Origin: Persephonella sp. KM09-Lau-8
Lineage (GTDB): Bacteria; Aquificota; Aquificia; Aquificales; Hydrogenothermaceae
Assembly: GCF_000703085.1 (NCBI RefSeq)
Contig: NZ_JNLL01000001.1
Span: 682,001-746,000, forward strand
Direction: 5' to 3'
DNA length: 64,000 nt
Below are positions 23,833 through 55,087 of the stretch, in pieces (positions within the stretch are counted from its first letter, which is position 1; each line of letters begins with the position of its first letter). Below the pieces are notes generated by a model. The model was not told where the DNA came from. It did no database searches and saw only the letters and a list, made by a program, of their open reading frames with translations. Position numbers and translations under genes: made by a program.

Positions 23833-24672
23833 ATGCTTGTAAAATCTATAGAAGAGATGAAGCAGATAGTTAAAAAACTGAAAAAAGAGGGTAAATCTAT
23901 AGGCTTTGTTCCAACTATGGGCTACCTCCATGAAGGGCATATCTCACTTATGAGATGTAGCAAAAAGGATAATGATATAACTGTTGTCAGTATCTTTGTA
24001 AACCCTATACAGTTTGGTGTAAATGAAGACCTTGATAGATATCCAAGGAATCTTGAAAGAGACCTCCAGATATGTAAAAAAGAAGGGGTGGACTATGTTT
24101 TCCATCCATCTGTTGAGGAGATGTATCCTGAGGGATTCTCAACTTATGTGGTAGTAGAAGGATTGACAGAAGGATTATGTGGTGCATACAGACCGGGGCA
24201 TTTTAAAGGTGTTACAACTGTTGTAAACAAACTATTTAATATTGTCCAGCCTGATAGGGCTTATTTTGGTGAAAAGGATTATCAACAATTAAAGGTAATT
24301 CAAAGAATGGTAAAAGACCTTAATATGAATGTTCAGGTGATAGGATGTCCTATTGTGAGAGAGCCTGATAGTCTTGCTATGTCTTCAAGAAATAAGTATC
24401 TATCCCCTGAAGAAAGAAAAGCAGCTTTATCCCTGAGCAAAGCACTGTTCAAGGCAAAAGAACTATTTGAGTCTGGAGAAACTGATATAAATAAGATAAG
24501 AAAAGAAATGGAAAAAATAATCCTGTCCCATCCTGAGGTTAAAGAAATTCAGTATATAGAATTTGTTGATGCTGAAACACTAAAGCCAAAAGAAAAACTT
24601 GAAAAAGGTAGTATAATTGCACTGGCAGTATTTGTTGGAAATACAAGATTAATAGATAACATAAAGGTGTGA
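23833..24672 (+). CDS. panC: Pantothenate synthetase
   Basis: 279 residues from the ATG at 23833, 8 bases after AAGGAG. An in-frame GTG at 23824 inside the ribosome site is less likely. PanC joins pantoate and beta-alanine using ATP. The nucleotidyltransferase HIGH motif is MGYLHEGH; downstream are FGEKDYQQL and SSRNKYLS, the KMSKS-type loop. Other CoA-pathway enzymes in the window are CoaB and CoaC (fused gene at 48548-49735). A MoxR-type ATPase gene begins 2 bases after the stop. Confidence 0.96.
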
Positions 24673-24674
24673 AT

Positions 24675-25604
24675 ATGCATATAAAAAATAAAAAAATTCA
24701 GGGAATTATAGAAACCTTATCACAGTTTTTACACGGAAAAGAGCAGGCATTAAGGCTATCTTTAATTACATTTTTTTCAAAAGGACATCTGCTTATAGAA
24801 GACATGCCCGGTCTGGGTAAAACAACACTTGCCATAGGAATAGCCAAAATAATGGGGCTTTCCTTTGGGAGAATACAGGCAACAAGTGATTTACTTCCCA
24901 CAGATATAACCGGTGTATCCATATACAATAAAGAACTCCAGAAATTTGAGTTCCATCCGGGACCTATTTTCAATAATATCGTGCTGGTTGATGAGATAAA
25001 CCGGGCTACCCCTAAAACCCAGAGTGCTTTGCTTGAGGCTATGGGAGAAAAGCAGGTTACAGTTGAAGGTGAGACATACAAACTTCCAAAACCATTTTTT
25101 GTAATTGCTACACAGAACCCTGTCGAGCAGTTTGGAACATTTCCCCTCCCTGAATCCCAGATGGATAGATTTATGATGAAAATAAGCATAGGATACCCTT
25201 CCAGAGAAGCAGAAAGGGAAATTCTAAAAGGTGGTAGCAAAAGGGAGGAGCTTTACAGAATTAGTCCTATACTGGACAAAGAGGAAGTTGTGAAAATACA
25301 AAATGAGATTGAACAGGTATATCTATCAGACAAAGTTATTGAATACATACTGGATATAGTTGAGGCAACCAGAAAATCTAAATATTTTGCCTCTGGGTTA
25401 TCAATCAGGGGAACATTAACTTTAGCAAAAACAGCACGGACAAATGCATATTTTAAAGGCAGAGACTATGTAATCCCTGAAGATATAAAGGAGCTTTTAC
25501 CTTACACAATACCCCACAGGATCATATTACACGAAATTTATCAAAATACAGACAGCGAGGAACTGATATTATCGGTAGTGGAAAAAATTCCCGTTCCAGC
25601 ATGA
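24675..25604 (+). CDS. MoxR-family AAA+ ATPase
   Basis: About 309 residues from ATG 24675 (GGTG 5 bases upstream; an in-frame GTG at 24669 is the alternative). Motifs: MPGLGKTTLA (Walker A), VDEINRATPKTQSALLEAMG (Walker B and following helix) and ATQNPVEQFGTFPLPESQMD (sensor region), all diagnostic of MoxR. These ATPases act as chaperones in cell envelope or metal-insertion processes. Here it is followed, with a 4-base overlap, by DUF58 and transglutaminase genes, the standard MoxR-DUF58-TgpA trio. Confidence 0.92.
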   Translation: MHIKNKKIQGIIETLSQFLHGKEQALRLSLITFFSKGHLLIEDMPGLGKTTLAIGIAKIMGLSFGRIQATSDLLPTDITGVSIYNKELQKFEFHPGPIFNNIVLVDEINRATPKTQSALLEAMGEKQVTVEGETYKLPKPFFVIATQNPVEQFGTFPLPESQMDRFMMKISIGYPSREAEREILKGGSKREELYRISPILDKEEVVKIQNEIEQVYLSDKVIEYILDIVEATRKSKYFASGLSIRGTLTLAKTARTNAYFKGRDYVIPEDIKELLPYTIPHRIILHEIYQNTDSEELILSVVEKIPVPA

Positions 25605-26476
25605 TAAAAATAACCAAAGCCGGATGGATATATATAGGGCTTACTATATTTCTGGGAGTTGCAGCTGTAAACACAGGAAACAACCTTGTTTATCTGATAG
25701 TTTCTGCAATGCTGAGTTTTATGGGAATTTCCGGATTTTTCGGAAGAAAAAATATTGATAAGCTCCAGATCGAACTGAAATTCCCTGAAGAGATTTATGC
25801 CAGTGTTGAAACCCCCGTAAAAATTGTTATAAAAAATCAAAAAAGATTTCTACCTTCTTTTTTGCTGAAGATTAGTATAAATAACCAGAAATCTGTAGTT
25901 CCCTATATAGATCCTTCTGGAGAATTTGACCTGCATCTGACCTTAAAATATAACCGGAGAGGATGGCACACCCTTGGATCTGTAGAAATATGTTCCGTAT
26001 TTCCATTTAATTTCTTTACCAGATGCAAAGAAACTCCTGTTAATCAAAAGTTCATAATTTTTCCAAAACCTGAAAAATGTAATCTATTAGTGCTTTATAC
26101 CAGCACAAAATCAGCAGGAGAATACCAATCAGATATTATAGGCACACAGGGGGAACTTATATCAATAAAGGATTACTCCCCGGGAGACCCTTTAAAGCTA
26201 ATCCACTGGAAAGCAACAGCAAAAACTGGACAACTAAAAACTAAAGAGCTAACAGAGGAAACTGTGCGTCCTGTTTTGATTGATTTTGATAATGTGAATA
26301 TTCCGGATATAGAAAAAAGGATTTCCTGTATAACATACAGCATATTACAGATGTATAAAGAAGGGATTCCCTTTGGACTGAAAATTGGAAATATTTTATT
26401 TCCTCCTGAGTATTCTACAGCAAACAAGGTGAAAATATTAACAGCACTGGCAGAATACGGAAAAAATGAAAATTAA
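25601..26476 (+). CDS. DUF58 domain membrane protein
   Basis: 291 residues. Two N-terminal hydrophobic helices (about 7-25 and 28-45) lead to an extracytoplasmic or cytoplasmic beta region and the DUF58 signature DYSPGDPLKLIHWKATAKTG. DUF58 proteins have a vWA-like fold and pair with MoxR ATPases. Overlaps the MoxR gene by 4 bases and the transglutaminase gene by 11. The function of the trio is not established biochemically. Confidence 0.88.
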   Translation: MIKITKAGWIYIGLTIFLGVAAVNTGNNLVYLIVSAMLSFMGISGFFGRKNIDKLQIELKFPEEIYASVETPVKIVIKNQKRFLPSFLLKISINNQKSVVPYIDPSGEFDLHLTLKYNRRGWHTLGSVEICSVFPFNFFTRCKETPVNQKFIIFPKPEKCNLLVLYTSTKSAGEYQSDIIGTQGELISIKDYSPGDPLKLIHWKATAKTGQLKTKELTEETVRPVLIDFDNVNIPDIEKRISCITYSILQMYKEGIPFGLKIGNILFPPEYSTANKVKILTALAEYGKNEN

Positions 26477-28352
26477 ACAGATAGTCTTTCTTATAACTTA
26501 TGTAATAGGGTTTATAGGTTTTTTATCGGTGGCACGGTTTATTGATTATCTGTATGACATTGTATTTTTAATTTTATTTATTACAGGTGCTTATTCAGAC
26601 TACAAAAATAAATATCCTGTTCCCCGTATAGCTTTAAACATTATTTCTCTAATTGTTGTAATTTTTATGGCCACCAGAATAAGTGCAGATAACTTAGTGA
26701 TACCTTCTATAGAAACGCTTCTTGTTTTACTTGGTATTAAGTTTCTGGAAAACAAAGAGTTCAGAGATTTTATGCAGATATACATGATTTCTGTATTCCT
26801 ATTGGCTGGCTCTGCCCTCCTTACAATAGATATATCCTTTATGCTGTTTTTTATTCTGCTATTTTTCCTTGTGGTTATCGGGGCAATACTGCTCACCTAT
26901 TACACACAGGATAAAGAGCTTATTGTTGAAAAAAGCATATTCAAAAAGCTTTTAATCAGGCTTACCATAATTCCTGTGGTTGCCATACCATTTACAATCC
27001 TGTTATTTATAATCCTTCCAAGGAGTCAGTATCCTGTTTTTAATTTCTTGAATTCCCAGTCAACAGGAAGAACAGGATTTTCTGATTCTGTTCAGCTGGG
27101 TGATGTTTCTCAGATACAGGAAGACAACAGCATTATAATGAGGCTAAAAACAGACAAGCCCCTTGATAAAGAAAATACATACTTCAGAGGAATTGTCTTG
27201 AACTTTTTTGATGGTCATAGGTGGTATAGAAGATTTTTAAGCTCAAAGGAAAAAGTTTCAGGAAAGCTTATAAAACAGGAAATCATTTTAGAGCCTTACG
27301 GAAACAAATATATTTTTGCAATTGATGTTCCTGTTAAATTTAATAGGCCTGTCAGAAAATATAATGATTTTACATTTGAAGCCCATAGAAGAATTTTCAA
27401 CAGGATTAAATATACAGCTTTATCCGTGGTTACAAACAGAATAAAGGTAATAAAAATAGATAAAAGAGGGTATTTACAATATCCCAAAAACATTAATTCT
27501 GAAATTATAAATCTTGCAAAACAGCTTAAAGGCAAAACAGATATTGAAACAGTAAAAAATGTAATTGGTTACCTAAAAAAATACAAATATTCCCTCAGAA
27601 ATCTGAAAAAAGGTAAGGACCCTTTATATGATTTTCTATTTATATCCAAAACAGGGAATTGTGAGTATTTTGCCTCGGCAGCTGCTGTATTACTCAGGAT
27701 AAATGGTATTCCCACAAGACTTGTTGCAGGATATAGAGGAGTCAGGTATAACGAACCAGGGAATTTTTATTACGTTCCCCAGAGTTTTGCACATACATGG
27801 ATAGAAAGCTATATAGATAGCTACTGGTATAGGTTTGATCCTACACCTTCGTATTCAGCAAGGGTTTTAGAGAAAAAAGGAAAATCAGTAATTGTGGAAA
27901 AAATCAGGGCGTTCTGGGAAGCTGTAGAGTATGCCTATATAAATATGATCATAAATTTTGATTTTAGTAAACAGATGAAGCTATTAAAGAAAACTAGCTC
28001 TGTAGCAAAAGGCTTCAGGGAAAGTATATCCATAGACAAATATCTAATTGTAAAGCTTGTCATTTTTGCTTCAGGTATTTATCTAATTTTTTATTTTGTC
28101 AGACACAAACCTGTTTTATTTTTACCGCCAGAAAAAAGACTACTTAACGCATTTTTGAAAAAAATGGAAAAACACGGCTATAAAAAAGAAATAAATGAAG
28201 GCCTTGAAGAGTTTGCAAACAGAATTGATGACGTAAAGTTAAAACAAAAAACGTTTGAGTTTATATCTTTATATCAGAGAATATATTACAGGGACAAAAA
28301 ATTCTCCCAAGAAGAAATCAGATATTTAAAAGATATTATCCGTAATATCTGA
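26466..28352 (+). CDS. TgpA-like transglutaminase/protease-fold membrane protein
   Basis: 628 residues. The N-terminal half to about residue 190 has six or more hydrophobic helices (DUF3488). A periplasmic transglutaminase-like core follows, with catalytic Cys in KTGNCEYFASAAAVLLR, His in SFAHTWIESY and Asp in RFDPTPS. A further TM helix (about 530-550) and a DUF4129-like tail end the protein. Homologous to Pseudomonas TgpA, which is essential in that organism. The last 27 bases overlap the end of the opposite-strand diguanylate cyclase gene. Confidence 0.9.
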   Translation: MKIKQIVFLITYVIGFIGFLSVARFIDYLYDIVFLILFITGAYSDYKNKYPVPRIALNIISLIVVIFMATRISADNLVIPSIETLLVLLGIKFLENKEFRDFMQIYMISVFLLAGSALLTIDISFMLFFILLFFLVVIGAILLTYYTQDKELIVEKSIFKKLLIRLTIIPVVAIPFTILLFIILPRSQYPVFNFLNSQSTGRTGFSDSVQLGDVSQIQEDNSIIMRLKTDKPLDKENTYFRGIVLNFFDGHRWYRRFLSSKEKVSGKLIKQEIILEPYGNKYIFAIDVPVKFNRPVRKYNDFTFEAHRRIFNRIKYTALSVVTNRIKVIKIDKRGYLQYPKNINSEIINLAKQLKGKTDIETVKNVIGYLKKYKYSLRNLKKGKDPLYDFLFISKTGNCEYFASAAAVLLRINGIPTRLVAGYRGVRYNEPGNFYYVPQSFAHTWIESYIDSYWYRFDPTPSYSARVLEKKGKSVIVEKIRAFWEAVEYAYINMIINFDFSKQMKLLKKTSSVAKGFRESISIDKYLIVKLVIFASGIYLIFYFVRHKPVLFLPPEKRLLNAFLKKMEKHGYKKEINEGLEEFANRIDDVKLKQKTFEFISLYQRIYYRDKKFSQEEIRYLKDIIRNI

Positions 28353-30683
28353 ATAAAATGTGTATCTATTTTTCCCTGTGAATTTTGAGTGATACATGGC
28401 ACGGTCTGCGTATTTAATAAGAGTTTCCAAGTCAATTGCATCATCAGGTAATATTGCTATACCTATACTTGCACCTATATGAATATAGTGTCCATCAATT
28501 AAAAATGGCTCATCAAGATTCATTAAAAGTTTATGGGCTATTCTTACAATATCCTCCTTTGAATATATATCTTTTAATACCACCACAAACTCATCACCGG
28601 CAAGCCTTGCCACAAAATCATCTCTTCTAACGGATTTTTTTAATCTTTTTGCCACTTCAACCAACAGCTTATCTCCAACTTCATGACCATAGGTATCATT
28701 TACCTCTTTAAAACCGTCAAGGTCTATAAACAGTAAGGCAACTTTTCCACCATCTCTTAGAGTTTCCTGAATCATTGATTTCAATTTTATAAAAAAGTAG
28801 GTTCTATTCGGTATTCCTGTAAGAGTATCATAATAAGCCAGATTTTCCAGTGTTTTTTCTTTGTGTTTCCTGAGTGTTATATCTGTTATCATTGCTATGT
28901 AATTCGTAGGTTTACCATCTGTTTTTACCTGAATTAATGAAAGCCATATAGGGAAAACCTCACTATTTTTCTTCAGTGCTATAAGCTCACCCTGCCATTT
29001 ACCTTTTCTTTTGACAAGTTCCCATATCCTCTGGAATTCTCTATGTTTAGCTCTAAATATAGGTAAAAATGTTATTTCTGTGCCCATGAGATCTTTCTTA
29101 TTGAATCCTGTAAGCTCTTCAAGTTCTCTATTTATTCTTAGAACTTTTCCATCACTGTCGGTGATAATAATACCTTCCAGTGCATTTTCAAATACTATAG
29201 ATGCCAGTTTAAGTTCTTTTTCTGCTATTTTCCTTTCTGTAATATCTCTTATTAAAAGCTGTATATATTTTTTATTTTTAATGGTAAACACACTTGCAGA
29301 AATCTCTGCTGGGAAGAAAGAATCATCAGATTTTTTCACACTGGCTTCGAATCTTGAATGACCTGTTTCCAGTAGTTTTGCAAGTAAATATCTAAAATAT
29401 TTTTTAAAGTCTTCACTAAAAAGATCCCTTATATTCATAATTCTTATATCAAACTTGTTATACCCAAGTTTATAGATTGCTCTCTGATTAGTATCGATAA
29501 TATTCCCCTGCAGGTCTGTTATTATGATGATATCATTTGAATACTCAAACAGATTTCTGTATCTTTCTTCATTTTCAAGTATTTTTTGATAGGCTTTGTG
29601 AATCTCGGTAATATCATAAACTATACCTATAAGCTTTTCTTTTGATGTATTTTCGTGGATGATTTTAGCTTTTTCTTTTATTATTTTTTCTCCACCATAG
29701 TTTATTCTGTATTCTATCTCATAAGGCCTTTTATATTTTATTGCTTCAAGCCTGACCTCAAAAACAGTCCTTCTATCTTCTGGATCAACAAGCTCTAAAA
29801 ATTCATTAAAACTCATAACACACTTTTTATCTTTACCACAGAAAATACTTTGAGCCTCTTCAGAAAGGAAAAAGCTAAGAGTATGTGGTTCAAACTCCCA
29901 GTATCCTAATCTTGCCAGTTCCTGCGCTTCATGGAGCTTTTCTTTTGTTTCCTTAAGTTTTTCTATTGTTTCTTTAAGCTGTTTTTCTCTTAAAAGTCTA
30001 TTTGTGATATCCCTGAATATGCCAAGAACTGCAGGTTTACCTTCGTATGTGATTACAGAAGGGTTAAACTCAAATATCCGTTCCTGACCATCTTTTGTTT
30101 TTAATTTAATCTGAAAATCTTTTTCTTTTTCTAATAACTCATCAAGATTAAGACCCATTATTTGATATAGGCTTTTATCCTTAATTTCTTCAGGATCATA
30201 ACCTAAAATTTCCTTAATTTTTGCATTGGCATACTTTATTTTATTTTCTTGAAGAATCAAAATAATCTCATTAACACCTTCAACGATGGAATGCCATTTT
30301 TCCTCACTTTCTTTAAGTTTTTCTTCATTTTTTTCTTTGTGTCTTATCCATTGATAAAAAGCAATGATTGTTAAAACTACACCAGGTAGCTTTACAGCTA
30401 TTTCTGAAATAAGGAGATAATGGAGATCTTCTTTTGTCAGAAAATAGGATATAAAGTTTGCCTGACCTGCAAGTATCAAAATGAAACCAAAATTTACTTT
30501 ATAATAGACTTCCGGAATATCTTTTAATCTCTGGGTGAGGTAATATGCACCGATTAGCACCAGAATTATAATTGAATTTGGGACAAGGATAGAGAAGTCA
30601 ATACTTTCCCGCAGACCAAATGAATATATATTAAAAACTATTATCAATACCACTAAGATTGAGGACAATAAAACTCTTAACAT
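28326..30683 (-). CDS. Four-TM, multi-PAS diguanylate cyclase
   Basis: 785 residues. Four hydrophobic helices (about 5-22, 31-49, 64-84, 91-112) form an N-terminal membrane sensor. Four PAS domains follow (about 127-235, 250-365, 370-490, 492-608), then a C-terminal GGDEF domain. The active motif is RLAGDEFVVVL, an accepted variant. The inhibitory RxxD site is present as RRDD, so product feedback is expected. No EAL domain, so this is the cleanest c-di-GMP synthase in the window. Divergent from the ribbon-helix-helix/EAL gene with 133 AT-rich bases between, which may hold shared regulation. Confidence 0.9.
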   Translation of the reverse strand: MLRVLLSSILVVLIIVFNIYSFGLRESIDFSILVPNSIIILVLIGAYYLTQRLKDIPEVYYKVNFGFILILAGQANFISYFLTKEDLHYLLISEIAVKLPGVVLTIIAFYQWIRHKEKNEEKLKESEEKWHSIVEGVNEIILILQENKIKYANAKIKEILGYDPEEIKDKSLYQIMGLNLDELLEKEKDFQIKLKTKDGQERIFEFNPSVITYEGKPAVLGIFRDITNRLLREKQLKETIEKLKETKEKLHEAQELARLGYWEFEPHTLSFFLSEEAQSIFCGKDKKCVMSFNEFLELVDPEDRRTVFEVRLEAIKYKRPYEIEYRINYGGEKIIKEKAKIIHENTSKEKLIGIVYDITEIHKAYQKILENEERYRNLFEYSNDIIIITDLQGNIIDTNQRAIYKLGYNKFDIRIMNIRDLFSEDFKKYFRYLLAKLLETGHSRFEASVKKSDDSFFPAEISASVFTIKNKKYIQLLIRDITERKIAEKELKLASIVFENALEGIIITDSDGKVLRINRELEELTGFNKKDLMGTEITFLPIFRAKHREFQRIWELVKRKGKWQGELIALKKNSEVFPIWLSLIQVKTDGKPTNYIAMITDITLRKHKEKTLENLAYYDTLTGIPNRTYFFIKLKSMIQETLRDGGKVALLFIDLDGFKEVNDTYGHEVGDKLLVEVAKRLKKSVRRDDFVARLAGDEFVVVLKDIYSKEDIVRIAHKLLMNLDEPFLIDGHYIHIGASIGIAILPDDAIDLETLIKYADRAMYHSKFTGKNRYTFYSDITDNIF

Positions 30684-30816
30684 ATTTATATTCTTATTAA
30701 GAAGAAAAAGTTTTAAACTTTTCTTATTATAACTTATAATAACTCTTGTTTTTAATTTCGGATTTATTGTTATATAATTATAATTTGATTCTAACTAAAA
30801 TGAATAGGGGGAGAAA

Positions 30817-32685
30817 ATGGCAAGTAAAAAAACAATCCTAAGTATAGCTATTGACAAAGACTTACTGGCCAAGCTTAAGAAGCTCTCCGAGGAAAAGGCA
30901 TCTTCTGTCTCAAAGTTAATAAGTAACTTAATAGAAGAGGCTCTCTATCTGGAAGAGAATGTTTTTAAAGACGATATATATCAGAATATTGACTGGCTCA
31001 GTGAAGAATGGAGAGATAAGCTGCAGGTCTTGTTTACAAAAGTTCTTGACACCACCCCAGACCCTATATGGATTAAAGATCTGAATCTCAAATTTATTTA
31101 TGTGAATCAGGCATTTGAAAAGGCATTTAAAGTCAAAAGAGAAGATATAATTGGTAAAGGAGATGTTGAAGTTTTACCACCTGAGGTGGCAAAAGAATGT
31201 ATATACTCTGATATGAAAGCTTTAGAGAAAAAAGAATCGTCCCATTCTTTAGAAAAAGTTCCTGCAGATAATGGTAAAGAGATTATATTTGATGTGATAA
31301 AAACTCCAATTTTTGACAGAACTGGAAAACTTATAGCTATCCTTGGTATATCCAGAGATATAACAGAGATAATAAATATTCAGAAAGAGCTTGAGAGAAA
31401 GAACAAAGAGCTTGCAGAAGCATATCAGCAGTTGAGAGATATATATGAATATGATGTGGTTACAGGTTTACTGAACAAAGAAAAATTTGTAGAAGAAGTG
31501 CATAACAAATTAGATGAAGCCAGTAATAGAGACAAATTTGAGTTTATTCTTATGGAAATATCAAATCTGATTTATGCAAATGAAGTCTATGGTTATGATT
31601 TTGGTAATAAAGTATTAAGAGAGTTTGCTGAATCTCTAAAAAAAGCCCTTGAAGAAAACAACTTTGAGTTTGTATTAGGAAAATTAAGCGGTAACAAATT
31701 TGGTCTTTTTGTGAAAAGTGAGGTATCTGATAGAAGGCTCCTGAGGAAATTTCTGAATTTTTTGAAAAATATAAGAATCCTTGCCCCTGATGATCATTAC
31801 TTCATTCCAAAAGTTAGTTTCGTTGTCAAGGATATAACTAAAAAAGATAAAGATGATTTTGAAAAACTAATTGTTTATATGGAAGACATACTCACAAGAG
31901 TTAGGGAAAATAGAAGAAAGAATTACCTCATATTAAGAAGTAATATGTCAATTTATGAAAAAGCTATAGAAGCTCAGAAAAAACTGAAAGAAGAAATAGA
32001 AAGCGGAAAATTTTCTCCTTCCCTCAGACCTATTGTTGAGCTTAATACCGGAAAAAAAGTTGCGTATGAAGTTACTTGTGGATTAAGTAGTATAAAAGAT
32101 GAAGACCTCTGCCATTTAGTAGATAACATTTATATAGAAGCTCCTCTTAGCCAGTTAGATGAAAAAATAATTCAGCTTGTAAAAAGAAAGGTTTATCCAA
32201 AACTCAAAGATGAAGAAAAAGTATTTGTAAAATTGAGACAACAATCTATAGAGCTAATGCTAAATATGCCAGATTCAGATATAGCAAAAGATATACTTTT
32301 TATAAAAGACAAAGCGGTTTTTGAGATAACAGAAGATACTTTTGTAAAAAATATCGGAACTCTTCATGAGTTGAAAAACTCCTATAATCTGCAGTTTTGT
32401 CTGGATGATTTTGGAACAGGTAATGCGTCTATAAAAAATCTGATCAGAATGCTTGAGTACGAAATGTTCCAGTATATAAAAATAAGCGAAAGTTTCATAA
32501 GAACATCAATGGTTTCATCTAAAAGAAAAAGAGTTTTAAAAGGTGTTATAGCTGTTACATCTGAGTTTGGAATAAAAACAATAGCCTCTGGAGTTTCATC
32601 TGAAAAATTGCTGGATTTTGTTAAAGAAATAGGTTTTGATTATGCAACAGGAAAGTTATTTAATGAGGAGAAAAAAATATTTTAA
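30817..32685 (+). CDS. Ribbon-helix-helix/PAS/degenerate GGDEF/degenerate EAL protein
   Basis: 622 residues. Residues about 6-48 match a CopG/Arc-type ribbon-helix-helix: a beta strand (TILSIAIDKDLLAKLKKLSE) then SSVSKLISNLIEEAL. A PAS domain (about 68-190) and coiled coil follow. The GGDEF domain has SGNKF at the active motif. In the EAL domain the motif is EVT, the SINISP asparagine is lost, the catalytic AEGxE segment reads ASGVS and QGY reads TGK. EITE, DDFGTG and the IKIS lysine remain. Both catalytic activities are predicted absent, with ligand binding still possible. The simplest reading is a DNA-binding regulator sensing a PAS signal and perhaps c-di-GMP. Start ATG follows AGGGGGAG. 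Confidence 0.85.
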   Translation: MASKKTILSIAIDKDLLAKLKKLSEEKASSVSKLISNLIEEALYLEENVFKDDIYQNIDWLSEEWRDKLQVLFTKVLDTTPDPIWIKDLNLKFIYVNQAFEKAFKVKREDIIGKGDVEVLPPEVAKECIYSDMKALEKKESSHSLEKVPADNGKEIIFDVIKTPIFDRTGKLIAILGISRDITEIINIQKELERKNKELAEAYQQLRDIYEYDVVTGLLNKEKFVEEVHNKLDEASNRDKFEFILMEISNLIYANEVYGYDFGNKVLREFAESLKKALEENNFEFVLGKLSGNKFGLFVKSEVSDRRLLRKFLNFLKNIRILAPDDHYFIPKVSFVVKDITKKDKDDFEKLIVYMEDILTRVRENRRKNYLILRSNMSIYEKAIEAQKKLKEEIESGKFSPSLRPIVELNTGKKVAYEVTCGLSSIKDEDLCHLVDNIYIEAPLSQLDEKIIQLVKRKVYPKLKDEEKVFVKLRQQSIELMLNMPDSDIAKDILFIKDKAVFEITEDTFVKNIGTLHELKNSYNLQFCLDDFGTGNASIKNLIRMLEYEMFQYIKISESFIRTSMVSSKRKRVLKGVIAVTSEFGIKTIASGVSSEKLLDFVKEIGFDYATGKLFNEEKKIF

Positions 32686-52784: not shown

Positions 52785-53474
52785 TTACCTCTTACAGAGG
52801 GAGATATTTTCCTTTAAATTGATATTAAATTCATTGTCTATTTCTACCTGAAAAGCTACGAATTCCACACCTTTTTTAAGTGCTTTATAAAAAACATCAG
52901 CAAAGTCAGGGTCTAATCTGCTATTAGGCTCAAAACATTTGCATTTCCTTAGAAGCATAAACAATATAATAGCTTCATATCCTTTCTCTACAGCTTCCAT
53001 TAGCTCCTCAACATGCCTTTTTCCTCTGGAAGTAGGAGCATCAGGAAACAGGCATTTTCCATCAACAAGCAGATTACTGCCTTTCAGTTCAACAAACACC
53101 TTATCATCTATCAGATAATCAAGACGGCTACTGCCAAACTTTACCTCTGATTTTATTTTTTTAGGGATAAATCCCAGAACTCCTTTTTCTATGGCTTTCC
53201 TACCAATTTTTGAATGAAAAGATGTATTAAGTAGAATCCAGCCATCTTCCATTTTTGCTGCTACTACCTTATAGTCTGTTTTCATTCCTGAAGGATTTTT
53301 GACCACAAGGAGTTCTCTACCTTTTGTAAGAATTTCCTTTAATCTACCTGAGTCAGCTATATGACATCTTTTGATATCTCCGTTAATATCACACAAACCA
53401 ACGAATCTGTTAGGTCTTTCTATGAATTTTGCTTCTTCCAGTTTTCCCAGATTTTTCAAATCAAACAGCTTCAT
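52785..53474 (-). CDS. sfsA: SfsA family DNA-binding/nuclease-fold protein
   Basis: 229 residues, typical length. Opens with AKFIERPNRFVG, then CHIADSGRLKEIL and LLNTSFHSKIGRKAIEKG. The conserved block SRLDYLIDDKVFVELKGS and the C-terminal RLDPDFADVFYKALKKGVE carry the acidic residues of the predicted nuclease-like centre. E. coli SfsA was named for stimulating maltose fermentation; its biochemical role is unclear. Starts 14 bases inside the end of the TPR gene. Confidence 0.9.
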   Translation of the reverse strand: MKLFDLKNLGKLEEAKFIERPNRFVGLCDINGDIKRCHIADSGRLKEILTKGRELLVVKNPSGMKTDYKVVAAKMEDGWILLNTSFHSKIGRKAIEKGVLGFIPKKIKSEVKFGSSRLDYLIDDKVFVELKGSNLLVDGKCLFPDAPTSRGKRHVEELMEAVEKGYEAIILFMLLRKCKCFEPNSRLDPDFADVFYKALKKGVEFVAFQVEIDNEFNINLKENISLCKR

Positions 53475-54306
53475 TTTCTTTTAATTTCCTGTTTATTTTA
53501 TTCAGGAGTTTCTTGAATTTTCTGTATTGGAGCACCTGTTTTGCAAGAGAGGTATTTTCCTCTATCACCTGTCTTGCTTTCCAATAATCCCCTGCCAGAT
53601 AATAGCTCTTTGCAATAAAATATGCTGAAGAAACAGCAGATTTTTTATCTCCAAGCTTAATATAAATCTTATATGCCTCTTGCAGATATTTAACTGCTTG
53701 ATTCCAGTTTTTAAGTCTAAAATGTGCAATTCCTGTGTTGTAAGAATTTAAAGCTATATAGGACGGCCTGATATTTATCTTTTTCCCTATTTCAAGCCCT
53801 TTCAGGTAATACTCTATTGCTTTGTTATATTCCCTTTTATCAAAATAAATATTCCCTAAATTTGCATAGGCTGCCGGCAGCATTTTTTGATTTTTGTTAT
53901 CCTCAGCAAGCTGAAGGGATATCTTAAAGTGATACAAAGCTTTATCATACTTTCCAAGATATCTGAGGATTTCTCCAACCAATGTATGTGAATAGGCTTT
54001 CCATCTATAATTGTCATAATTTTGAGAATAATCAACAGCAAGATTTGCATACTCAAGGGCTTTATCAACTTTTCCCCGCATAAAATAAGCTATTCCAATG
54101 TAATAATAGCCTTCAGCAATACCTTTGGGATAATTAATTTCCTTTGATTCCTGAACAACTTTTTTAGAGATTTTCTCCATAGAAACATATCTGCCCTTTT
54201 CATACATCTGCCAGGCTTTTTGAAGCTGTTTGTCTATTTCCTCTTTTGTGATACCAAAAGCAACAGTTGAAATTGTAAGTAGAAACAAAAAAATCCTTAA
54301 AATCAT
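53461..54306 (-). CDS. Exported TPR repeat protein
   Basis: 281 residues. Signal peptide (ILRIFLFLLTISTVAFG) followed by about five or six tetratricopeptide repeats, for example AEGYYYIGIAYFMRGKVDKA, AAYANLGNIYFDKREYNKA and NSYNTGIAHFRLKNWNQA. Probably a periplasmic scaffold; partner unknown. It is the first gene of the minus-strand run to hemD and overlaps sfsA by 14 bases. No lipobox cysteine is visible. Confidence 0.85.
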   Translation of the reverse strand: MILRIFLFLLTISTVAFGITKEEIDKQLQKAWQMYEKGRYVSMEKISKKVVQESKEINYPKGIAEGYYYIGIAYFMRGKVDKALEYANLAVDYSQNYDNYRWKAYSHTLVGEILRYLGKYDKALYHFKISLQLAEDNKNQKMLPAAYANLGNIYFDKREYNKAIEYYLKGLEIGKKINIRPSYIALNSYNTGIAHFRLKNWNQAVKYLQEAYKIYIKLGDKKSAVSSAYFIAKSYYLAGDYWKARQVIEENTSLAKQVLQYRKFKKLLNKINRKLKENEAV

Positions 54307-54318
54307 CTTTCTAAACCC

Positions 54319-54348
54319 CTGAAAATCTGCCTAATTATAACCTATAAT
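54319..54348 (+). promoter_or_regulatory. Possible sigma-70-type promoter of ubiE
   Basis: CTGAAA (54319-54324) and TATAAT (54343-54348) are 18 bases apart in the 97-base divergent gap, 55 bases before the ubiE ATG. The -10 box is perfect, the -35 box is weak. Confidence 0.3.
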
Positions 54349-54403
54349 AAAAATCATAAAATTTCTGTGATGAAAAACATTCTTTACAGGGGATATCGCT
54401 GAA

Positions 54404-55087
54404 ATGGGAATTAAGATAAAAAAAGTTCGAAAGACGTTCGATGCTATTGCTGACAGATATATACTGGCAAATCATATCCTTAGTTTTGGTCAGGATATAT
54501 GCTGGCGAAAAAAGATGTGTCAGAAGGTTTCCAAACATCTTAAGGAAAAAAGTCTTATTTTAGATATAGCAACAGGAACCGGAGAAAATTTTAAATATTG
54601 CCCTTCTATATTTGAGACAAAAATTGGACTTGACCCTGCAAGAAATATGCTTTTGAAAGCAAAAGAAAGATTTCCAGATGTTAGATTTATTGAAGGAGTT
54701 GCTGAAGAGCTTCCCTTAAAGGACAATACCGTTGATTTAATCCTTGTGTCTTTTGGTGTAAGAAATTTTGAAAACAGACCTGAAGCATTCAAAGAGTTCA
54801 ATAGGGTTCTTAAAAAAGATGGAATTGTTGCAATACTTGAGTTTTTCCCTATGGAAAATGGAACATTATTAAACAAAGCTGCGGCATTTTATATATACAA
54901 AGTTTTACCCTATTTTGGTGGGCTTATAACCGGAAATTTTGATGCCTATAAATATCTGTCTATTTCGATACAAAACTTTGTTCCTCCAGAAATAATGAAA
55001 CTGGAACTGGAACAAAACAACCTTAAAGTTGTGGAAAAAGAAAAAATATTCCCTGATGTTTATATATTTGTGGCGAAAAAAGAGTAA
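54404..55087 (+). CDS. ubiE: UbiE/MenG-type quinone methyltransferase
   Basis: 227 residues. Class I SAM methyltransferase with motif I LDIATGTGE, the N-terminal VRKTFDAIADRYILANHILSFG, and VSFGVRNFENRPEAFKEFNR, all typical of UbiE/MenG. It C-methylates demethylmenaquinone (or a ubiquinol precursor); with Aquificota as host, menaquinone-type quinones are likelier. Starts behind CAGGGG. Nothing follows on this strand except the CRISPR leader and array. Confidence 0.88.
   Translation: MGIKIKKVRKTFDAIADRYILANHILSFGQDICWRKKMCQKVSKHLKEKSLILDIATGTGENFKYCPSIFETKIGLDPARNMLLKAKERFPDVRFIEGVAEELPLKDNTVDLILVSFGVRNFENRPEAFKEFNRVLKKDGIVAILEFFPMENGTLLNKAAAFYIYKVLPYFGGLITGNFDAYKYLSISIQNFVPPEIMKLELEQNNLKVVEKEKIFPDVYIFVAKKE

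Follow-up and report, generated by a model that had tools for sequence, protein, structure and literature searches.

Can a protein with the domains of the c-di-GMP network act on transcription through a ribbon-helix-helix (RHH) domain at its N-terminus? The question arises from an open reading frame at 30817..32685 (+) in a stretch of 64,000 nt from the thermophilic vent bacterium Persephonella sp. KM09-Lau-8, which we refer to as the window. A strong ribosome-binding site, AGGGGGAG (30806..30813, +), lies upstream, and the frame encodes a protein of 622 aa in which an RHH domain is followed by a PAS domain, a degenerate GGDEF domain and a degenerate EAL domain. No Rfam family was found between 24000 and 36000 of the window.

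Domain layout and the N-terminal domain

With the whole protein as query, Pfam returned EAL (1.4e-26), PAS_4 (3.7e-20), GGDEF (3.9e-14), DUF6364 (3e-4) and RHH_1 (0.02). The RHH domain covers residues 1–48 (30817..30960, +), with a strand at about residues 5–12 and helices at 14–27 and 31–48, and is delimited by Pfam, PHROGs, a search of the phylum, hhalign and the helix spacing of AF2 models. A linker (residues 49–76; 30961..31044, +) with a helix at 63–77 was defined by identity comparison and the AF2 model. It leads to the PAS domain, which had been read from the sequence alone and is recovered by Pfam at residues 77–184 (31045..31368, +). The nearest solved relatives of this PAS domain are the PAS domains of HTH regulators (6ugl, 6kju and 6ide; 1.6e-6), a weak match that would follow the same logic as the switch proposed below. 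A signalling helix (residues 185–211; 31369..31449, +; AF2 helix 183–211) connects it to the degenerate GGDEF domain (residues 212–368; 31450..31920, +), found by Pfam, and the degenerate EAL domain (residues 388–616; 31978..32664, +), found by Pfam and a fold match, closes the protein.

The sequence-only reading had taken the first 48 residues for an RHH domain, and profile comparisons bear this out. For the N-terminus alone we obtained DUF6364 (7e-6), RHH_3 (1.4e-4, just over its cut-off), RHH_1 (0.0015) and RHH_5 (0.011), several of the Pfam RHH models scoring near, at or just under their cut-off. The PHROGs family phrog_3180 (‘Arc-like repressor’) matched 14 of the 14 family members tested, at 7.3e-7 for the window protein and at 1.6e-9 in the best case. 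When a profile of the 48 residues was run against 136 Aquificota genomes, two groups were retrieved in addition to the PAS-GGDEF-EAL family. The first consists of antitoxin-like RHH proteins that stand alone (best E 1.5e-11), and the second of RHH domains at the C-terminus of HNH/NUMOD4 endonuclease-like proteins of the same genus, including this genome. Using hhalign, the RHH domain of the window family aligned with the first group along its full 48 columns with an identity of 40% (E 1.2e-12) and with the second group at E 8e-12, and it has the strand motif KKxILSI in common with the second group (KKDILSI in the protein of the same genome). The stand-alone proteins (RHH_5/DUF6290; G122, G107 and G111) are the closest RHH sequences outside the family, but unlike the window protein they are about 75–77 aa long and carry no sensor or output domains. 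The HNH_3/NUMOD4 proteins with a C-terminal RHH domain close to that of the window (L059 in the G000:C1:1034893 region, L060 and L061) are themselves conserved across several genomes of the genus.

The N-terminus thus shows what defines the RHH superfamily (MetJ/Arc/CopG), a strand-helix-helix pattern about 45 residues long that resembles the profiles of RHH families. Four of its residues, K5, S9, S30 and S32, are invariant. In RHH proteins DNA is touched by the exposed side of the strand and by the beginning of helix 2 (PMC7156744), and the four residues map to these places. However, while many RHH repressors carry R, K or T at the strand positions facing DNA, the positions expected to do so in the window protein (I7, S9 and A11) are mostly non-polar. 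Structure prediction reproduced no more than the helix spacing. AF2 models of a single chain (alignment of 7 sequences; pLDDT 67 and 59, full protein and residues 1–60 modelled) place two helices with low confidence at 14–27 and 31–48, a spacing that is right for an RHH domain, but they contain no strand, because the RHH strand needs a dimer, and leave the fold unconfirmed. When these models were compared with known folds, nothing useful matched the RHH domain, and the RHH profile retrieved weak matches only from the PDB sequences (best AvtR, 0.006). Since the profile and hhalign matches are good whereas the AF2 models are of low confidence and lack the strand, we base the RHH fold on homology, which we take to establish it, and not on the structure models.

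Distribution, conservation and catalytic decay of the family

Orthologues with their N-terminus were observed in 23 genomes from six of the ten genera of Hydrogenothermaceae compared (g1, g2, g3, g4, g5 and g7); two g1 genomes have no orthologue, and both are incomplete (78% and 55%). The RHH domain was found in each clade member that has its N-terminus on the contig. A maximum-likelihood tree built from the PAS-GGDEF-EAL region groups the 16 rows with an RHH domain in a single clade (support 100/99). Paralogues from these genomes that lack RHH fall outside it, a pattern compatible with one fusion event. A search for RHH plus EAL architectures across Aquificota, suggested together with the initial assignment, ends in this one supported clade: the RHH-PAS-GGDEF-EAL architecture was found nowhere else among the 136 Aquificota genomes, and the plasmid, phage and viral-contig collections, which complete the scope of this statement, held no RHH-bearing relative, the matches listed there beginning at residue 70 or later.

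Next, we compared the conservation of the single domains. The mean pairwise identity is 72% for the RHH domain, 86% for the linker, which is the most conserved stretch of the protein, 75% for the PAS domain, 43% for GGDEF and 42% for EAL. The dN/dS ratio is about 0.1 or less in each domain for all computable pairs, and all domains are under purifying selection. This selection and the presence of the RHH domain throughout the clade place the architecture beyond chance. One member, in G005, consists of RHH and PAS alone (186 aa) and stops cleanly against recG with no remnant of GGDEF-EAL. From this member and from the identities of 72–86% compared to about 42% for the GGDEF and EAL domains, the RHH-linker-PAS unit appears as the core of the protein.

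Catalytic competence was scored at eleven key positions of the EAL domain and six of the GGDEF domain, of which the window protein retains 5 and 3, respectively. The loss of both catalytic motifs had been read correctly: SGNKF replaces GGDEF (residues 291–295; 31687..31701, +), EVT replaces EAL with the R of EAxxR changed to G (residues 418–420; 32068..32076, +), ASGVS replaces AEGVE (residues 590–594; 32584..32598, +) and TGK replaces QGY (residues 611–613; 32647..32655, +). By comparison, 10–11 of the 11 EAL residues are retained in seven further GGDEF-EAL proteins encoded by this genome. The other family members in the window genus retain 1–4, those of the g3 type 7–8 and those of the g4 type 9. 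The orthologue in G016, which we take to be Persephonella marina EX-H1 and therefore call the probable P. marina orthologue, retains 10 of 11 EAL and 6 of 6 GGDEF residues (as SGDEF), with D at the metal-binding E and EVF where EAL is expected. Judged by these residues, catalytic decay is graded across the family, and inactivity marks the window lineage, not the family as a whole. Close homologues that keep catalytic residues had been named as evidence against the initial assignment; the P. marina type does keep nearly all of them, whereas the members of the window lineage are decayed.

As a separate observation, the genome (G000; 2.07 Mb) has about 20 places with relatives of GGDEF, EAL or PAS, and most of those that were checked have their EAL residues intact. 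By this count its c-di-GMP network is rich for a small thermophile genome.

The divergent cyclase gene and the intergenic region

The neighbouring gene at 28326..30683 (−) encodes, according to Pfam and sequence, a membrane-anchored diguanylate cyclase (DGC) with three PAS domains and a GGDEF domain with intact AGDEF and RxxD site (RRDD I-site). The sequence-only reading had pointed to the divergence from a c-di-GMP synthase gene and to this gene as a plausible target, and the divergence is confirmed: the pairing is kept across the genus and in P. marina, in both of which the RHH gene is also convergent with recG, and orthologues of the DGC occur in P. marina and in 10 genomes of the genus besides this one. 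The DGC gene is likely the target or partner of the RHH protein. However, synteny extends over the entire neighbourhood in the window genus and P. marina, and for this reason the pairing alone is weak evidence. Genes for a MoxR ATPase, a DUF58-like protein and a TgpA-type transglutaminase, which lie in a row at 24669–28352 of the window, are likewise kept in the genus and P. marina.

In the genera g3 and g4 the DGC gene does not adjoin the RHH gene, and in G002 and G004 we found neither an adjacent DGC gene nor an orthologue of the window DGC, so that the window DGC is not a universal target and the target of the regulator may differ between genera. In g4 (L050:6222-8818 and L051:6355-8963) the RHH-PAS-GGDEF-EAL gene is followed, at a distance of 5 to 11 nt, by a ZIP metal transporter gene in the same orientation. 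The RHH-PAS gene of G005 (L053:3770-6265) is convergent with recG and divergent from a gene for a HAMP-GGDEF cyclase (GGEEF, intact), in a neighbourhood that differs from that of the window and whose genes read like a cytochrome bc1 set. We considered this cyclase as an orthologue of the window DGC and rejected it, as genome search and Pfam identified a different HAMP-GGDEF protein. No toxin gene was found adjoining the RHH gene.

The RHH and DGC genes are separated by 133 bp (30684..30816). This region contains two 18-bp blocks without a single difference among 4 genomes, compared to an identity of 44–54% at the four-fold sites of the gene. The first block forms the core of a palindrome, TTATTATAACTTATAATAA (30724..30742), a candidate operator or a pair of overlapping divergent −10 boxes. 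The second, ATTGTTATATAATTATAA (30766..30783, +), holds a TATAAT hexamer and probably is the promoter from which the RHH gene is transcribed. In the sister group a different block, of 46 bp, is 96–100% identical in 6 genomes at a four-fold identity of 35–55%. The constraint on these blocks is clear; what binds them we infer below. The palindrome is the sole perfect copy in the genome and, taken alone, is only modestly unlikely to arise by chance (4 of 60 shuffles reach it), and since TATAAT occurs on both its strands, it may be an operator, a promoter pair or both. Searching the genome for a regulon with the palindrome, the second block or the block of the sister group, we found no second strong site. 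A copy of the palindrome with 2 mismatches lies at 54332–54350 of the window, upstream of a TPR-like gene (53461–54306, −) and a methyltransferase-like gene (54404–55087, +).

Function of the fusion protein

We favour, with moderate confidence, the reading that the protein is a PAS-controlled one-component RHH regulator that acts on the cyclase gene and on its own, and in which GGDEF-EAL is a module without catalysis. A one-component regulator had already been proposed from the sequence, and the RHH fusion, the PAS domain and the conserved divergence from the DGC gene make it plausible. The protein would be a dimer in which the N-terminal RHH domain, antitoxin- or Arc-like by sequence, forms a DNA-binding ribbon with that of the second subunit. 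The PAS domain would read a signal, and the nearly invariant helical linker would pass it on to the RHH dimer, whose subunits would change in spacing or pairing, while GGDEF-EAL would serve in the window lineage for dimerisation or protein interaction and may still be an enzyme in the P. marina type. Most likely the regulator would bind within 30684–30816 and adjust its own gene and the divergent DGC gene, in the simplest account by repressing both, and a PAS input would then become a c-di-GMP output at the level of transcription. The homology of the RHH domain, its invariant K5, S9, S30 and S32, the strand KKDILSI found again in the endonuclease-like protein of the same genome, the conserved RHH-linker-PAS unit, the DGC pairing and the constrained intergenic blocks all point in this direction, as does the RHH-PAS-only relative in G005, which is divergent from a different intact DGC. 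Against it, the constrained blocks hold promoter hexamers and could be two promoters only, the strand residues I7 and A11 are non-polar, the AF2 model of the RHH domain is of low confidence and the DGC is not a universal neighbour.

The initial proposal had also combined the PAS signal with nucleotide binding, and this part is not supported in the window lineage. That the GGDEF-EAL part of the window protein binds c-di-GMP or GTP appears unlikely, although its EAL domain matches the folds of LapD, FimX and PA0861 and still has DDFG, K and two E residues, both domains are under purifying selection, and the P. marina-type and g4 members keep 9–10 of the 11 key residues. LapD and FimX resemble the window protein in their tandem GGDEF-EAL domains with lost catalysis, but they have no DNA-binding domain and retain the ligand-contact residues. 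In the window protein these residues are replaced (Q by R, the R of EAxxR by G, N by K, the E of AEG by S and the Q of QGY by T), the GGDEF domain has no RxxD site and relatives of the same genus go down to 1 of 11. As the residues holding the ligand are lost as well, it is doubtful that the window protein serves as a receptor for c-di-GMP. The RHH domain itself can be compared to CdbA, an RHH protein tied to c-di-GMP with similar helices (16–28 and 32–48) and without PAS, GGDEF or EAL. The polar pocket of CdbA (K6, K8, Y12 and R30) is absent, with I7, A11 and S29 in the places of K8, Y12 and R30 in a register inferred from secondary structure.

An enzyme tethered to DNA is a further reading. 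E. coli PdeL (YahA), a trigger phosphodiesterase with a LuxR-type HTH (PMC5052742), is a precedent for a one-component regulator with a DNA-binding domain N-terminal to EAL; it differs from the window protein in its HTH domain, in having no PAS or GGDEF and in its active EAL domain. A competent EAL domain of this kind is near complete only in the P. marina-type orthologue, whose residue counts would suit an ancestral form that is an active phosphodiesterase and/or cyclase bound to DNA via RHH, the window form being a regulator only. Nevertheless, the D and EVF substitutions make the activity of the P. marina form uncertain, and such a scheme accounts for the origin of the family, not for the present window protein; we consider it quite improbable. 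Finally, the RHH domain could bind no DNA and instead mediate dimerisation or contacts with other proteins, such as a partner protein or a DGC, which would make the protein an adaptor. The non-polar exposed strand residues would suit this role. So would the 40% identity, over 48 residues, with the stand-alone antitoxin-like proteins, since RHH proteins of that class bind partner proteins as well. But with invariant K5, S9, S30 and S32 at DNA-contact positions, no adjoining toxin gene and constrained intergenic DNA we regard it as very unlikely.

In a full-text search of the literature we found no description of an RHH domain fused to PAS, GGDEF or EAL, and the RHH proteins linked there to c-di-GMP are stand-alone factors only (CdbA and AmrZ). 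The Arc-type RHH-HisKA-REC proteins of Lokiarchaeum (PMC5847659) are also fusions of RHH to signal-transduction domains, but to a histidine kinase and a receiver instead of PAS-GGDEF-EAL. The novelty would lie in a one-component regulator with RHH where HTH is usual, DNA-binding EAL proteins being known with HTH (PdeL). We tentatively suggest that a PAS-GGDEF-EAL enzyme captured an antitoxin-like RHH domain once in an ancestor within the Hydrogenothermaceae and became a one-component transcription regulator of c-di-GMP synthesis, with stepwise decay of the enzyme domains from the nearly intact P. marina type through the window protein, in which both are dead, to their complete loss in RHH-PAS alone. 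If so, the family would preserve a series in which an enzyme becomes a transcription factor. Should the favoured regulator reading be true, it would bring a further type of DNA-binding domain into the c-di-GMP network, and would do so in a phylum of thermophiles where c-di-GMP has been little studied. It would also provide graded natural intermediates in the conversion of a second-messenger enzyme into a transcription factor.
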